A DNA stretch of 64,000 nucleotides from a virus, in IMG/VR virus record IMGVR_UViG_3300036770_000417, positions 1-64,000 of that record. One strand, 5' to 3'. The stretch's first letter is position 1, and every line of letters starts with the position of its first letter. This document shows, piece after piece, positions 1,169-7,692 of the stretch. The notes beneath the pieces were generated by a model, which was not told the DNA's origin, ran no database searches, and worked only from the letters and a program-made list of their open reading frames with translations. The position numbers and the translations under genes are program-made.

Positions 1169-1475
1169 TACGAACACCGAAGCACCCCGCCGGGTGCAGA
1201 CACTGGAGACAGCAATCAAGCTGACAGCGGGCGACCGCAACAAGGCTTACGGACCCCCGTATGGTAACCTGTCAGACTGTGCGGTGCTGTGGGATGCTTA
1301 CCTCTCCGTCCGGGGCAACGAGCGTCTCGACGCCGAAGCCGTAGCGTGGATGAACGTGCTGCAGAAGATCGCCCGCTCGTGCCAGCCGGGCTATCACCCC
1401 GACAACTATACCGATGCCGCGGCTTACGCTGCCATCGCAGGGGAGTGCCGAGAGATCGAGGAGGCGGGCATATGA
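1158..1475 (+). CDS. DUF6378-like phage protein
   Basis: A 105-residue protein with the pattern of phage DUF6378 proteins: an N-terminal TAGDRNKAYGPPYGN motif (about residues 23-37), a central run rich in Ala and Trp ending in LQKIARS, and a PDNYTDAAAYAAIAGE C-terminus. A ribosome site (GGAGGAG-like) precedes ATG 1158. Members are common next to phage replication genes. Their function is unknown, though the helical make-up resembles nucleotide pyrophosphohydrolase-like folds. Its stop overlaps the polymerase start by 4 nt. Confidence 0.7.
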   Translation: MATDTNTEAPRRVQTLETAIKLTAGDRNKAYGPPYGNLSDCAVLWDAYLSVRGNERLDAEAVAWMNVLQKIARSCQPGYHPDNYTDAAAYAAIAGECREIEEAGI

Positions 1476-2752
1476 ACATCATAACACTTGACATGGAGAC
1501 CTACTACAGTCGCGAGTACTCACTGTCCAAGATTACCACCGAGGAATACATCCGCGACCCCATGTTCGAGGTGATCGGTGTTGGTGTGAAGGTGGGCAAC
1601 GACCCCACCGAGTGGGCCAGCGGAAGCATGGAGCAGATCGCCACATACCTGCGCGGGTTCGACTGGGAGAACTCCGCCCTGCTGGCGCACAACACTATGT
1701 TCGACGGCGCCATCCTGTCGTGGCGGTTCGGTATCAGGCCCAAGGCGTATCTGGACACGCTGTCCATGGCGCGCGCCCTGCACGGCACCGAGGTAGGCGG
1801 GAGCCTCAAGGTGCTCGTCGAACGCTACGGGCTGGGTGCCAAGGGCACTGAGGTGCTCAACGCACTGGGTAAGCGCCGCCGGGACTTCACCGAGGAAGAA
1901 CTCAGCCGGTATGGGGACTACTGCGTCAACGACGTGGAGCTGACCTACAAGCTGTTTCACAAGATGGGTGCGGGCTTCCCGAAAAAGGAGCTCAAGCTGA
2001 TCGACCTGACGCTACGCATGTTCACTGAGCCGGTGCTGGAGCTCGACCGCCCGCACTTGGAGCAGCACCTCGACGCCACCGTGAAGATGAAAGAGCAGCT
2101 GCTGGTGGACGCAGGGGTGACGGACAAGGCAGACCTCATGTCCAACCCGAAGTTTGCACAGCTGCTGACGCAGTTAAGCGTGAGCCCTCCGACGAAACTT
2201 AGCCCCACGACTGGCAAGGAAGCCTTCGCGTTTGCCAAGAGCGACGAGGAGTTCAAGGCACTGCTGGAGCATGAGGACGCACGGGTGCAGGCGCTGGTCG
2301 CCGCAAGACTGGGTAACAAGTCAACGCTGGAGGAGACCCGCACGCAGCGGTTCATCAACATCGCCGAGCGGGGCACCCTACCGGTGCCTATCCGATACTA
2401 CGCAGCACACACGGGGCGCTGGGGTGGTTGCTTAGTTGCCGATACAGAGGTAACGGTGTTTGACAAAACTCGCGGAGTCTGCAAGAAGAAGATCGTCGAT
2501 GTACTGGCTGACGACCTTGTGTGGGATGGCGTGGAGTTCGTCGCACATGACGGTGTTGTATTCAGCGGCTACGCCGAGGTCATCGAGTGGGACGGAGTGC
2601 GGGGGACCGAGGACCATGTCGTATTTACAGACGCCGGAGAGATTAGCCTACGAGACGCGAAAGCGGGAGGCCACAACATCCAAACTGCAGGCATCCCTGA
2701 CAAAGACGCTGTGGACTCGGCTCGACACTGGGTTAGTGAGTACGAAGAGTAA
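1472..2752 (+). CDS. DNA polymerase family A, N-terminal half fused to intein N-fragment
   Basis: This 426-residue protein is the first half of a replicative family A polymerase. Residues 1-319 hold the 3'-5' exonuclease (Exo I D7/E9 in LDMETYY, Exo II AHNTMFD near 71-77, Exo III YCVNDVELT near 150) and the start of the polymerase domain, up to HTGRWGG. At residue 320 the sequence turns into an intein: Cys1 in CLVADTEVTV (block A) and GTEDHVVF (block B, T-x-x-H). After 107 intein residues it stops at TAA 2750-2752. The rest of the polymerase lies in the gene starting at 3364. Known split inteins trans-splice such halves. The join here would recreate TGRWGG-SDSINLQNLPSR, a conserved family A motif. 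Confidence 0.9.
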   Translation: MNIITLDMETYYSREYSLSKITTEEYIRDPMFEVIGVGVKVGNDPTEWASGSMEQIATYLRGFDWENSALLAHNTMFDGAILSWRFGIRPKAYLDTLSMARALHGTEVGGSLKVLVERYGLGAKGTEVLNALGKRRRDFTEEELSRYGDYCVNDVELTYKLFHKMGAGFPKKELKLIDLTLRMFTEPVLELDRPHLEQHLDATVKMKEQLLVDAGVTDKADLMSNPKFAQLLTQLSVSPPTKLSPTTGKEAFAFAKSDEEFKALLEHEDARVQALVAARLGNKSTLEETRTQRFINIAERGTLPVPIRYYAAHTGRWGGCLVADTEVTVFDKTRGVCKKKIVDVLADDLVWDGVEFVAHDGVVFSGYAEVIEWDGVRGTEDHVVFTDAGEISLRDAKAGGHNIQTAGIPDKDAVDSARHWVSEYEE

Positions 2753-3383
2753 GGTCCGCTGTCGGTGTACCTGCGGGCGCGAAGCACAAGTGCGTGTTGC
2801 TGAGTTGTTAGCAGGAAAATCGCGCAGCTGTCGGTCATGTAGTGTGAGGTTGAGGATGGCTAGACTGCCGCCAGACCTACGCGTGCAGCTGGCTAAGAAC
2901 GCTTCGACCGCGGCGGTGGCCGCGGTCGCCAAGCGAGAAGACCATCTTGTATCTGAGTTCGGCGCTGCTGCGGTCAGGTCTGTGCTGAACATACTGTCGG
3001 GAGCCAAGCAACGATGCACGAACCCCAACTGTAGCCAGTACGCGGGCTACGGGCTTCGGGGTATAGAGTTTCGATTCCCGTCTGTGCGCGCCGGTGCGGA
3101 GTGGCTGCTCAAGAACATAGGCCCTCGACCGGCAGGCAGGTTCAGTCTCGACCGTATCGACAACAACCGACACTACGAACCGGGAAACCTCCGGTGGGCT
3201 ACATACAGCGAACAGGCCCGCAACAAGCGTACGTATATACGCACTAAGGCGGGAGAGCGGATTCGGGTGCTCATGCAGCAGCGCTCCGATCTAACCTATG
3301 AAACCGTGCGCCTATGGATAAAGCAAGGCGCCACCGATGAAGAGATATTAGGGAGAACGAAATATGCTCGTACCAGTGTATGA
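2736..3383 (+). CDS. HNH-type homing endonuclease inside the split-intein locus
   Basis: An open frame lies between the two polymerase halves in a different frame from both. It begins with a zinc-ribbon (CRCTCG ... CRSC), as seen in many phage HNH enzymes. It then has a YGLRGIEF segment, an HNH-like core (FSLDRIDNNRHYEPGNLRWA) and a C-terminal helix-turn-helix-like tail (LTYETVRLWIKQGATDEEI). The start is uncertain. GTG 2736 is used here because it lies just before the zinc ribbon; ATG 2616, after GAGGACC, is an alternative deep inside the intein N-fragment. It overlaps the N-half by 17 nt and the C-half by 20 nt. Homing enzymes placed this way spread the split locus into intein-free alleles. 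Confidence 0.85.
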   Translation: MSTKSKVRCRCTCGREAQVRVAELLAGKSRSCRSCSVRLRMARLPPDLRVQLAKNASTAAVAAVAKREDHLVSEFGAAAVRSVLNILSGAKQRCTNPNCSQYAGYGLRGIEFRFPSVRAGAEWLLKNIGPRPAGRFSLDRIDNNRHYEPGNLRWATYSEQARNKRTYIRTKAGERIRVLMQQRSDLTYETVRLWIKQGATDEEILGRTKYARTSV

Positions 3384-4320
3384 CATACGCAACTGCGGCC
3401 CCCGGCACCGGTTTGTGGCTAACGGAAAGCTCGTGCACAACTCGGACAGTATCAACCTGCAGAACCTGCCAAGCCGCGGGCCTAACGCCAAGCAGATCAA
3501 GAAGGCTATCGTCGCACCCGAGGGCTACACACTGATCGAGGCCGACTCATCGCAGATCGAGGCCCGCGTGCTCGCGTGGCTGGCTGGGCAGGACGACATT
3601 GTTAGTGCCTTCGCTAACAAACAGGACGTCTACAAGAAGATGGCGTCGGCGATCTACAGCAAAGATGAGGGCGAGATCGACAAGCAGGAGCGGCACGTCG
3701 GCAAGACAACGGTGCTCGGATGCGGCTACGGCATGGGGGCGCCGAAGTTCCAAGACGCACTGAAAAACGGCTTCCCGCCTGTGGAGCTCCCGCTCGACGA
3801 GGCCCGCCGAATCATCAACGTGTATCGGGATACCAACTGGAAGATCGTGCAGCTGTGGCGTAACGCGCAGAACGCCCTCGTAGCTATGTCGCGTGGTGAC
3901 ACGTCACCGATAGACGTCCACGGACTTCTGGAGGTGGTGCCGGACGCACCCGGTATCCGCCTGCCGTCGGGCCTGATCGTGCGCTACGACGACCTGCGGT
4001 TCGACGAGACCGAGAAGGGCGTGCAGTTCCACTACAACACCCGACAGGGCCGCACGCGTATATACGGCGGGAAGGTTGTGGAGAACGTAACGCAGGGCGT
4101 AGCGCGCTGCATCATCGGCGAGCAGATGTTGAGGATTGCCAAGACGTATCGCGTAGTGTTAACTGTTCACGATAGCATCGTGTGCCTCGTCCGCGACGAG
4201 GAGGTGCCCGAGGCGCAGGCGTTCATCGAGGCAGAGATGCGGCGACCCCCCGAGTGGGCACCGGGGCTGCCGGTGGACTGCGAGTCAGGCGTCGGAAAAA
4301 GCTACGGAGATTGTGAGTGA
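3364..4320 (+). CDS. intein C-fragment fused to DNA polymerase family A, C-terminal half
   Basis: A 318-residue protein. Residues 1-26 are an intein C-fragment: block F VYDIRNCGPRHRFVANG, then block G ending LVHN, followed by Ser27 as the +1 residue. Residues 27-318 complete the polymerase: motif A EADSSQIEARVLAWLAG (about 59-75), motif B from R110 (RHVGKTTVLGCGYG) and motif C LTVHDSIV with D270. ATG 3364 has its own GGGAG ribosome site, so the half is translated separately. After trans-splicing, 319 + 292 residues would give a polymerase of about 611 residues. Motif C has HDS rather than the commoner HDE; the metal-binding Asp is kept. Confidence 0.9.
   Translation: MLVPVYDIRNCGPRHRFVANGKLVHNSDSINLQNLPSRGPNAKQIKKAIVAPEGYTLIEADSSQIEARVLAWLAGQDDIVSAFANKQDVYKKMASAIYSKDEGEIDKQERHVGKTTVLGCGYGMGAPKFQDALKNGFPPVELPLDEARRIINVYRDTNWKIVQLWRNAQNALVAMSRGDTSPIDVHGLLEVVPDAPGIRLPSGLIVRYDDLRFDETEKGVQFHYNTRQGRTRIYGGKVVENVTQGVARCIIGEQMLRIAKTYRVVLTVHDSIVCLVRDEEVPEAQAFIEAEMRRPPEWAPGLPVDCESGVGKSYGDCE
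3601..3618. repeat. imperfect inverted repeat GTTAGTGCCTTCGCTAAC
   Basis: Copy with five matched bases per arm, inside the polymerase C-half. Could be chance. Confidence 0.4.
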
Positions 4321-5277: not shown

Positions 5278-7692
5278 ATGGATATCGTCAACAATAAGGC
5301 GCTGCTGTTGAAGCTGCGCCACCCAAGCCGCGTCACTACGGTCATCGAAAAGAGCCAAGAGGTGCGACCGCACGAAGTGCTGGTGCGCTGGGGTGTCGAC
5401 GAGGTGCACAAGCTGCGCGACCTCAACATCTCCGCACCGTCACCGATAGAGGGCAGGTACAACTGGCCCGGACGATGGGCGCCAATGTCGCACCAGCGTA
5501 CCACAGCATCGTTTCTTACCAAGCACCGCAAGGCGTTCTGCTTCTCGGAGCAGGGTACCGGCAAGACTGCCTCGGCCATCTGGGCTGCGGACTTCCTGAT
5601 GACGCAGGGCAAGGTGCGTCGGGCACTCGTGGTCTGCCCCATCTCGATCATGGACAGTGCATGGCGCAACGACCTGTTCAACTTTGCGATGCACCGGACG
5701 GTGGACGTGGCCTACGGCGGTGCGGAGAAACGCAAGAAGATCATCGCAAACGGTGCGGAGTTCGTCATCATCAACTACGACGGCATCGAGGTGGTGCAGA
5801 ACGAGATTGCCAACGGGGGCTTCGACCTCATCATCGTAGACGAGTGCTTTGTAGCGGGCACGCCCGTACACACACCAGACGGCCTGACGCTAATTGAAAA
5901 CCTGCGGGTCGGTGACGCGGTCTTTACAAGTAACGGAGTACACAATATAAGTACTGTGTCTAAGCGGAAACCAAGCGCGCTTGTGGAGGTTACACTTGAC
6001 ACTGGAGAGCTCATCACCTGCACTCCGGAGCATCCTTTCTTCACTGACTGGGGTTGGGTGCCCGCCAAAGCTCTTGCAGGTAGACGGATCGTGTCTGCAT
6101 CTAGCCTGCCCAATATGCGGGGCGGCGTATACGCTCCGCACGGCGAAGTGGCAGTTTCACCGAAAAGCGGGAACCCACACTGGGATGACTTGCTCGCGAT
6201 CCTGCGGTCGGAAGAGGTGGCACCAACTACATCCGGGGGAGTCAGCACTCAAGCGATTGACCGCAGAGCAACGGGCGTTGGGCGTTCGGTCGGGGTTTCA
6301 CCGGACAGCGGAGCAGCGAGCACACCTGTCGAAAGTAGCGAAGGAGAGAGGGCTCCGCCCGGTAGTTCGCGGCGGGAACGGAACTGGAATGACCGGGCCA
6401 GAGAAGCAGCTTTTGCCGACGCTCCCGACGGGGTGGGTATGGAACTTCCCAGTAGCGTTGGGTCGCAGGCAGCGCGGCTTTCCTACGCACTTCAAGCTAG
6501 ACTTCGCGTGGCCAGAAAAGAAAATCGGGTTGGAGGTGGATGGAAACAGCCACCGGACGACAAAGGGTCAGGCGCGGGACAAGCGGAAAACGGAGACGCT
6601 TTCGGTGCTCGGGTGGATAGTGTTACGTATCGGAAACCGAGAAGTGACGAATACGTCTACAACCTCGAAGTTGCTGGAACGCCTAACTACTTTGTTGGGG
6701 AACAACGAGCGCTAGCGCACAACTGCACACACTACAAGACGGCAACGACCAAGCGCTGGAAGGTGCTGAACTCTCTGGTGAAGCCGGAGACTTGGGTGTG
6801 GCTGATGACGGGCACACCCGCTGCACAGTCACCGCTGGACGCCTATGGTCTGGCTAAGCTGGTCAACCCCAACAACGTGCCGCGGTTCTTTGGCTCGTTC
6901 CGGGATCAGATTATGACGAAGCTGACGCAGTTTCAGTGGGTGCCGAAGGCAAACGCATCGGAGGTCGTGTTCAACGCACTGCAACCTGCCATACGGTTCA
7001 CGAAGGCCGAGTGCTTGGACCTCCCTGAGATGGTGTACGTCAAACGGGAGATCGCCCTGACCAAGCAGCAAGTGAAATACTACAACCTGCTGAAGCAGCG
7101 TATGGTCATGGAGGCCGCAGGCGAAGAAGTCACCGCGGTCAACGCCGCCGTGAACATGAACAAGCTTCTGCAGATCAGTGCGGGGGCTGTCTACGCCGAC
7201 AGCGGCGAGGCGCTGGAGTTCGACATCCAGCCTCGCTACCAAGTGCTGCAGGAGGTCATCGCCGAGACCAAGAACAAGGTGCTCGTGTTCGTGCCGTTCA
7301 AGCACACCATCGACCTGCTCACGACTAAGCTGCGCGCTGATGGGGTGAGTACCGAGGTCATCCGAGGCGATGTGCCTGCCAGCAAGCGCACCGAAATATT
7401 CAAGGCGTTCCAAGAGCAGCCTAACCCCCGCGTGCTGGTGATTCAGCCGCAGTCAGCCGCGCATGGTGTGACACTGACCGCAGCCGACACGGTAGTGTGG
7501 TGGGGGCCCACGCCGTCACTGGAGACCTACGCACAAGCCAACGCGCGCGTGCACCGCACGGGGCAGAAGAACAAGTGCACTGTCGTACAGCTGTACGGCT
7601 CGCCTGTAGAAAAGCGTGTCTATGCGATGCTCGATAACAGGATTGACGTCCACACAAGAATGATCGAGTTATACAAAGATATGCTTGACTAG
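5278..7692 (+). CDS. SNF2-family helicase with in-frame intein
   Basis: An 804-residue open frame. The extein is a SNF2/DEAD-like DNA helicase: Walker A SEQGTGKT (91-98), a DE box at 188-189, and motif VI QANARVHRTGQ near 752. Right after the DE box an intein begins at Cys190 (CFVAGTPVHTPDG) and ends AHN-482, followed by Cys483. Block B is CTPEHPFFT and block F is VYNLEVAGTPNYFVG. Splicing would restore VDE-CTHYK. The middle of the intein (about residues 265-440) is low-complexity and Ser/Gly/Arg-rich, and it is the shadow of a homing endonuclease coded in the +1 frame. ATG 5278 has a good ribosome site. The helicase probably works with the phage polymerase and nucleases. Confidence 0.9.
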   Translation: MDIVNNKALLLKLRHPSRVTTVIEKSQEVRPHEVLVRWGVDEVHKLRDLNISAPSPIEGRYNWPGRWAPMSHQRTTASFLTKHRKAFCFSEQGTGKTASAIWAADFLMTQGKVRRALVVCPISIMDSAWRNDLFNFAMHRTVDVAYGGAEKRKKIIANGAEFVIINYDGIEVVQNEIANGGFDLIIVDECFVAGTPVHTPDGLTLIENLRVGDAVFTSNGVHNISTVSKRKPSALVEVTLDTGELITCTPEHPFFTDWGWVPAKALAGRRIVSASSLPNMRGGVYAPHGEVAVSPKSGNPHWDDLLAILRSEEVAPTTSGGVSTQAIDRRATGVGRSVGVSPDSGAASTPVESSEGERAPPGSSRRERNWNDRAREAAFADAPDGVGMELPSSVGSQAARLSYALQARLRVARKENRVGGGWKQPPDDKGSGAGQAENGDAFGARVDSVTYRKPRSDEYVYNLEVAGTPNYFVGEQRALAHNCTHYKTATTKRWKVLNSLVKPETWVWLMTGTPAAQSPLDAYGLAKLVNPNNVPRFFGSFRDQIMTKLTQFQWVPKANASEVVFNALQPAIRFTKAECLDLPEMVYVKREIALTKQQVKYYNLLKQRMVMEAAGEEVTAVNAAVNMNKLLQISAGAVYADSGEALEFDIQPRYQVLQEVIAETKNKVLVFVPFKHTIDLLTTKLRADGVSTEVIRGDVPASKRTEIFKAFQEQPNPRVLVIQPQSAAHGVTLTAADTVVWWGPTPSLETYAQANARVHRTGQKNKCTVVQLYGSPVEKRVYAMLDNRIDVHTRMIELYKDMLD
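5845..6723 (+). mobile_element. helicase intein with overprinted homing endonuclease
   Basis: The intein (293 residues) is recognised by Cys1, blocks A, B, F and G, and the terminal Asn with a +1 Cys. It sits at the DE box of a SNF2 helicase, a highly conserved site of the kind inteins prefer. Its endonuclease is not fused in frame but coded in the +1 frame of the same DNA, from about 5996 to 6715, and that gene ends 8 nt before the intein does. Confidence 0.85.
5996..6715 (+). CDS. Vsr-like homing endonuclease, out of frame inside the helicase intein
   Basis: The +1 frame within the intein encodes a protein of about 239 residues. Order of parts: a zinc-ribbon-like CPIC ... CSRSC, basic repeats of the DNA-binding NUMOD type (RTAEQRAHLSKVAKER), then a Vsr/DUF559-type nuclease core: GPEKQLL, FKLDFAWPEKKIGLEVDG, H six residues on, DKRKTETLSVLGW and VLRIGN. 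This matches the very-short-patch-repair-like homing enzymes described from fractured phage genes. No ATG is available at the front. TTG 5996 is chosen because GTGGAGG lies 6 nt upstream; TTG 5981 and a later TTG are alternatives. The last ~25 codons overlap intein blocks F and G. Confidence 0.8.
   Translation: MTLESSSPALRSILSSLTGVGCPPKLLQVDGSCLHLACPICGAAYTLRTAKWQFHRKAGTHTGMTCSRSCGRKRWHQLHPGESALKRLTAEQRALGVRSGFHRTAEQRAHLSKVAKERGLRPVVRGGNGTGMTGPEKQLLPTLPTGWVWNFPVALGRRQRGFPTHFKLDFAWPEKKIGLEVDGNSHRTTKGQARDKRKTETLSVLGWIVLRIGNREVTNTSTTSKLLERLTTLLGNNER

Follow-up and report, generated by a model that had tools for sequence, protein, structure and literature searches.

A viral family A DNA polymerase gene apparently fractured by a mobile split intein and an overlapping HNH endonuclease gene

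How does a bacterial virus obtain one DNA polymerase from two genes that flank, and overlap with, an endonuclease gene in another reading frame? The question is raised by the window, a stretch of 64,000 nucleotides of viral DNA (positions 1 to 64,000 of IMG/VR record IMGVR_UViG_3300036770_000417), in which a family A DNA polymerase is encoded by an N-half gene at 1472-2752 and a C-half gene at 3364-4320. We consider it highly likely, from comparative sequence analysis, that this locus is a fractured polymerase gene with a mobile split intein. An earlier note on this DNA had proposed a fractured gene, and independent loci, conserved splice residues, purifying selection, the predicted fold of a homologous intein and intein-free junctions in other polymerases all support that proposal. 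The locus comprises an enzyme gene in two pieces, one intein part on each piece and a free-standing endonuclease gene between them; this layout is common to dozens of related viruses and shows how split inteins may arise.

Layout of the locus and its relatives

As the earlier note had read it, the N-half ends in an intein N-fragment (IntN) followed by a stop codon, and the C-half has its own ribosome site and begins with a 26-residue intein C-fragment (IntC) ending in His-Asn before a serine. IntN opens Cys-Leu-Val-Ala-Asp-Thr; IntC, counted from ATG 3364, reads MLVPVYDIRNCGPRHRFVANGKLVHN. The features of the locus are the following.

1472 to 2428, plus strand: N-extein, 3'-5' exonuclease domain and N-terminal part of the family A DNA polymerase, 319 residues, ending TGRWGG
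2429 to 2749, plus strand: IntN, 107 residues, from Cys1 (2429) up to the stop codon at 2750-2752
2603 to 2617, plus strand: block B, GTEDH; its His codon CAT and the next codon, GTC, together contain the HNH start ATG, read in the +1 frame
2616 to 3383, plus strand: predicted HNH endonuclease gene, 255 residues, ATG 2616, TGA 3381-3383, third frame
2760 to 2840, plus strand: zinc ribbon of the putative endonuclease, CxCxCG...CxxC, from cysteine conservation in 20 homologues
3150 to 3188, plus strand: HNH-type motif DRIDNNRHYEPGN, from the homologue alignment and PHROG HNH profiles
3351 to 3356, plus strand: Shine-Dalgarno-like GGGAGA for the C-half, pairing energy (dG) -8.9
3364 to 3441, plus strand: IntC, 26 residues, own ATG, blocks F and G, ending HN
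3442 to 4317, plus strand: C-extein, C-terminal part of the polymerase, 292 residues, +1 Ser (3442), stop codon 4318-4320

The N-half, HNH and C-half genes lie in frames 1, 2 and 0, respectively, all three different, and the endonuclease gene overlaps the N-half gene by 137 nucleotides and the C-half gene by 20 when counted from ATG 2616, in line with the overlapping other-frame gene first noted. Both halves match PHROG DNA polymerase profiles (phrog_17 for the N-extein, E 2.2e-21), the N-extein matches Pfam PF01612 (E 1.3e-8) and the C-extein matches PF00476 (E 4e-36). Joined, the exteins give the anticipated 611 residues (319 + 292) and restore TGRWGG-SDSINLQNLP. IntN alone yielded no Pfam match; phrog_26005, a family whose function is not known, matches IntN and then IntC in that order, which points to contiguous relatives.

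A first scan recovered a relative, L013 (L numbers denote related loci and contigs), that agrees with the window in its stop, its HNH frame and the start of IntC; identities are 63 and 53% in the polymerase halves, 62% in IntN, 61% in HNH and 85% in IntC. Scanning with the HNH pair added about 30 further relatives, all of identical layout, and scanning with the joined intein profile added more, bringing the total to about 47 distinct IMG/VR IntN loci, fractured or split. The viral contigs come from this one collection, loci were counted as distinct by the first 250 nucleotides of IntN, and the E-values of the scans refer to candidates only. Nearly all relatives have the 26-residue form of IntC with an ATG or GTG start. 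Intein-free polymerases with the same junction, which the earlier note had suggested looking for, were found: we aligned the N-extein through the junction with 153 of them, and those 70-74% identical to the N-extein continue uninterrupted across it.

Conservation of the split intein and rival explanations

The residues that splicing would need are strikingly conserved. Cys1 is kept in 28 of 28 distinct loci, and the +1 residue is Ser in 26 of these and Cys in 2, compared with Asp (115), Ala (29), Ser (6), Gln (2) and Gly (1) at the same position of the 153 intein-free polymerases; Ser or Cys thus occurs in 28/28 fractured loci versus 6/153 intein-free ones (Fisher p 2e-27, relatedness of the sequences being left uncorrected). 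Block B T60 and H63 are invariant among 11 aligned inteins, as is the C-terminal HN in the aligned inteins. Furthermore, in pairs where dS can be estimated, the ratio of nonsynonymous to synonymous divergence (dN/dS) lies mostly well under 1 for the exteins, IntN 1-61, the HNH core (about 0.03-0.22) and IntC, with 0.02-0.07 at IntC codons 8-26 where measurable, a pattern that indicates purifying selection on the parts of the split intein.

Structural evidence is consistent with these patterns. The joined IntN and IntC profile matches the Spl DnaX mini-intein 7cfv (E 4e-4). The fold was assessed on L253 only, a contiguous 134-residue homologue located at exactly the window's site in a contig of a metagenome-assembled genome, as a stand-in for the split pair. 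Its model, for which split fragments served as alignment rows, reaches a predicted local distance difference test score (pLDDT) of 90 and a predicted template modelling score (pTM) of 0.81, and is predicted to adopt a Hint fold, with the gp41-1 intein as best PDB match in Foldseek (E 3e-5), followed by the DnaB, DnaE and NrdJ-1 inteins. The only low-confidence stretch is a loop before the last strands, at about residues 91-110, where other members are split. The IntC is very short, as first remarked, at 26 residues against the usual 35-40 (PMC12707363), and this merely reflects a compact intein cut within its disordered loop. The net charges of IntN and IntC are -13 and +3 in the window, with family means of -11 and +2.4, the opposite-charge pattern described for split inteins (PMC11923092). 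Taken together, these data suggest that the split intein very probably stitches the two polymerase proteins together.

The same observations bear on an alternative in which the intein no longer splices, its pieces are remnants and the halves form a two-subunit, non-covalent polymerase. Splicing of this intein is predicted from sequence, and the break falls between the exonuclease and N-terminal part and the polymerase palm, where assembly of two chains is imaginable. Such an enzyme would leave unexplained why each of the 28 distinct loci has Cys1, the final HN and a nucleophile at +1 when intein-free alleles mostly carry Asp or Ala there, why the block B Thr and His are invariant in the 11 aligned inteins, and why purifying selection on IntN 1-61 and IntC 8-26 is strong. 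We regard it as improbable.

Ribosomal frameshifting could instead fuse IntN, HNH and IntC into one contiguous, HNH-bearing intein; the frames run 0, +1 and +2 in the window and most relatives, and two +1 shifts would suffice. However, IntC has its own start codon and Shine-Dalgarno (SD) sequence in nearly all loci, with a mean SD-like pairing at the IntC starts of 28 loci of -6.8 versus -2.5 at internal ATGs. Moreover, IntC lies in the frame of the N-half in L096-L098, L294, L297, L302-L304 and L314, which would demand other shifts, and the split is kept where the HNH gene is missing (L094) or decayed (L254/L311). The chance that frameshifting is the explanation appears very small.

Smaller still is the likelihood that the gap is a self-splicing RNA intron with an HNH gene, even though phage HNH genes often reside in group I introns. 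A search for group I or II intron structure gave no Rfam match between 1400 and 7800, even at E up to 1. The gap is bordered by intein fragments conserved as protein, whose synonymous sites are free except where HNH overlaps them, and homologues that are contiguous at the protein level occupy the site in L253 and Moraxella phages. Finally, an assembly error at the stop at 2750, which the earlier note had named as a way for its reading to fail, or a recent frameshift pseudogene might be suspected in a single metagenomic viral contig, but this is refuted by the relatives: stop, HNH frame and IntC start are common to L173, L174, L013 and dozens of other distinct contigs, the roughly 47 distinct loci share the fractured or split layout, and dN/dS is low on both halves.

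The HNH gene and mobility of the cassette

The endonuclease frame has its first start codon at 2460 and runs into both polymerase halves before its stop at 3381-3383. Translated from 2460 to 3380, it matches phrog_374 (E 6.5e-30) and further PHROG HNH families, and among 20 homologues the cysteines at positions 51, 53, 72 and 75 are invariant and that at 49 nearly so, in agreement with the zinc-ribbon HNH type originally assigned; Pfam and PDB sequence searches gave no usable match for its identity. The AlphaFold2 model of the 255-residue protein has a pLDDT of 87, and in it the part encoded within IntN forms a confident helix and the first strand of the zinc ribbon.

Synonymous codon choice locates the ends of this gene. 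Codon choice at 23 distinct fractured loci was set against the codon usage of the polymerase C-half. Over the last 60 extein codons the excess of synonymous codon identity is 0.06; it amounts to 0.08 over IntN codons 1-61, and rises to 0.60 in codons 62-85 and 0.73 from codon 86 onwards. The step falls at IntN codon 63, the block B His, which is CAT in 22 of 23 loci (background 52 CAT to 73 CAC), and the Val codon that follows is GTC in 18 of 19 cases, so that CAT-GTC contains an ATG in the frame of HNH. Around the HNH stop, the excess is 0.30 in IntC codons 1-6 and 0.04 in codons 7-26, and Tyr6, whose codon provides the T of the HNH TGA stop, is TAT in 21/23. The onset of constraint at ATG 2616 and its end at the TGA define the HNH gene of the window as 2616 to 3383, refining the start given before. 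These patterns place the HNH start on an ATG formed by the catalytic block B His-Val codons, as in 22 of the 23 loci compared, and indicate that about 45 codons are dual-coding for HNH and IntN. A start at GTG 2736, our initial assumption, was rejected: most relatives have no start codon at that position, and the constraint sets in already at ATG 2616.

Two further constrained positions lie outside the overlap. IntN codons 2-4 (2432-2440) favour TTA GTT GCC, and IntC Asp7 (3382-3384), whose third base lies just beyond the HNH stop, is GAC in 21/23; both perhaps reflect endonuclease recognition or stop-codon context.

The cassette also moves. Between L178 and L179 the element is 94% identical in nucleotide sequence, the polymerases are only 63-80% identical and the nearby polymerase flanks 63-83%, which implies recent horizontal transfer; accordingly, synonymous differences per synonymous site (pS) amount to 0.11 in the HNH core versus 0.74 in the polymerase. 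The window's nearest intein, in L173, is 85% identical in IntN and 80% in HNH, with only 63% identity in the N-extein, and the polymerases nearest to the window's are intein-free. These comparisons indicate that the cassette has recently moved horizontally between divergent polymerase alleles. By analogy with its family, the HNH protein would drive this transfer. On the polymerase tree the intein label needs at least 3-4 changes, a weak result given that the intein-free sample was picked for its proximity to the window and that the tree joins long branches.

On these data we propose the following mechanism. A single messenger RNA with three starts would yield the N-extein with IntN, the HNH protein (from ATG 2616) and IntC with the C-extein (from ATG 3364, with its own SD). 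As the conserved anatomy suggests, IntN and IntC would assemble into one intein, helped by their opposite charges of -13 and +3; attack by Cys1, transfer of the chain to Ser+1 and cyclisation of the terminal Asn of IntC would then release the 611-residue polymerase. The HNH enzyme would cut intein-free polymerase alleles at TGRWGG/DDKINLQNLP, and repair would copy IntN, HNH and IntC as one cassette, the transfer being evident in the comparisons above and the part of HNH in it presumptive. Conservation indicates that the first 45 or so HNH codons overwrite the region from block B to the IntN end, and the last ones the start of IntC; written over the intein fragments in this way, the HNH gene makes for a compact cassette, and neither of its ends can vary without affecting the intein.

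From contiguous to split inteins, and known systems

Homologous polymerases are found in a range of related states: free of inteins, with a contiguous mini-intein, with a contiguous intein that hides an HNH gene, fractured around an HNH gene or around a decayed one, and split with no HNH gene. In APSE-1, EBPR siphovirus 2, Pseudomonas phage MR14, Gardnerella phage AB1 and Streptococcus phage Javan255, the family A polymerase intein is contiguous and a zinc-ribbon HNH gene sits inside it in a different frame, and the same holds for L019, L042, L077 and, at a second site, L253. The in-frame linkers tested, of 135-189 codons, stay open, for which the first-order Markov chance is at most 0.4% in the polymerase cases and 1.3% in the window's helicase intein. 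Site a' lies three residues further downstream than the site used in the window; there L327 has a contiguous intein that hides an HNH gene in the +1 frame, and L314 and L315 are fractured and have an HNH gene. In L311 the HNH gene is truncated and in L254 none is recognisable, both still being split, and L094 has lost the HNH core, the HNH start and end being fused and IntC following IntN after a few bases. Contiguous mini-inteins without HNH are found in L253, at the window's site, and in Moraxella phages Mcat20/21.

Several side observations accompany this series. The hidden-HNH set includes L007 (APSE-1), L008, L009, L011 and L012, and in APSE-1 the HNH gene is partly annotated as P46. L254 (Aggregatibacter kilianii) and its viral relatives L325, L311 and L312 have a split polymerase intein with a decayed or absent HNH gene. 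Two inteins share one polymerase in L261, L268, L270, L253 and L315, with the one at site a (the window's) or a' fractured (contiguous in L253) and that at site b contiguous. Moraxella phage genes (L003 2306-3238, L004, L308 and L309) are chimera-like, with a polymerase motif and then a mini-intein in the middle; we take their N-terminus to be ThyX-like and their C-terminus DUF3310-like. In the window itself, the helicase gene (5278-7692) contains a contiguous intein at 5845-6723, within which a DUF559/Vsr-like endonuclease open reading frame (5981-6715; PF04480, E 1e-8) lies entirely, in the +1 frame; eight other contigs (L337-L344) likewise carry a helicase intein with a hidden frame. At the helicase, L336, a contig of IMG/VR sample 3300034073, matches the window with 100% identity along 3426 bases.

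The most economical order of these states would lead from a contiguous intein with a hidden HNH gene to the fractured form and then to decay or loss of HNH. The ancestor of the window's element would be such a contiguous intein: after IntC had gained its own start, stops arising in the linker would have done no harm, and the gene would have fractured. Whether out-of-frame overprinting is a general route to split inteins (a nested HNH gene whose start is captured by the block B His-Val codons, which would make endonuclease and splicing domain hard to part, a freed linker, an IntC with its own start, fracture and, after later HNH loss, a plain split intein) seems to us evenly balanced. If this were true, the inteins of family A phage polymerases located at or beside one insertion site would display every one of its steps.

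Several points weigh against our interpretation. The intein was not recognised by Pfam, NCBIfam or single-sequence searches, and the case for splicing, cleavage and the three translation starts is a prediction from sequences and models. The nuclease identity of the putative HNH protein derives from PHROG profiles and motifs, and Foldseek found no solved relative of its model, the matches listed being noise (E at least 0.7). The codon test omitted the divergent L096/L098/L100/L203 and the HNH-less L094; one locus (L013/L175) has CAC ACA in place of the block B ATG and must start HNH elsewhere; and SD-like pairing at the HNH ATG exceeds the control only modestly (mean -5.4 vs -1.8). Finally, site a' offers a single contiguous hidden-HNH locus (L327), and the direction of the series is one that we infer.

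How do these features compare with known systems? In fractured genes, a conserved phage replication enzyme is reportedly interrupted by a split intein and its two halves flank a free-standing endonuclease gene, and a Vsr-like endonuclease is said to occur in about half of the published loci. The window's locus shares with them the order N-half with IntN, endonuclease, and IntC with C-half (Dassa et al. 2009). It differs in that its putative endonuclease is of the zinc-ribbon HNH type rather than Vsr-like, its IntC has only 26 residues, and the predicted endonuclease start lies within block B, with about 45 dual-coding codons and a link to hidden-HNH inteins.

The gp41-1 intein comes from a fractured locus as well and has an IntC of 37 residues. 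It (PDB 6qaz) is the closest match to the L253 fold (Foldseek probability 1.0) at about 23% identity, its host gene being a helicase and its IntC longer. In cyanobacterial DnaE and Nanoarchaeum equitans PolB, replicative polymerase halves are likewise joined by a split intein, but these are cellular, belong to other polymerase families and have no endonuclease gene between the halves; the IntC of the N. equitans PolB intein is also short, at 30 residues. Split inteins of phage PolB polymerases (Aes123 PolB1, CP21 PolB1 and LCGC14 PolB2; PMC12707363, PMC11923092) also interrupt DNA polymerase genes, in phages or in phage-like sequences from metagenomes, and are cut at the homing-endonuclease position, yet they are family B and cysteine-less, unlike the window's family A intein with Cys1.

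Hidden out-of-frame HNH genes have precedents. The one in the ShiLan methylase, a phage gene, lies in an insertion without intein motifs (Arsenault et al. 2025, PMC11855218); it resembles the window's in being an HNH homing gene with zinc-finger parts, in a frame different from that of the invaded gene, and in moving horizontally, whereas the host element in the window is an intein, split in two. The APSE-1 P45 polymerase intein with its nested P46 HNH (NC_000935) is of the same intein type and has an out-of-frame zinc-ribbon HNH, although its intein frame is contiguous and its insertion site different. Our literature search turned up no published case of an intein with an HNH gene nested in another frame, which only weakly suggests that none exists, and a bioRxiv study of non-canonical inteins in actinobacteriophages (cited in PMC11855218) may overlap with our findings.

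Compared with these systems, the fractured gene is of a kind already known; what is new is the predicted HNH start at the block B ATG, the freeze of synonymous sites and the link to hidden-HNH inteins. Through the block B start codon, a homing gene would be bound in a concrete way to the splicing domain that carries it. The family is also a source of dozens of natural split inteins that Pfam and NCBIfam overlook, with an unusually short IntC of 26 residues, and a short IntC is sought for peptide ligation (PMC2664965). Furthermore, how contiguous inteins become split is an old question, and the states found side by side in homologous polymerases make the route testable.

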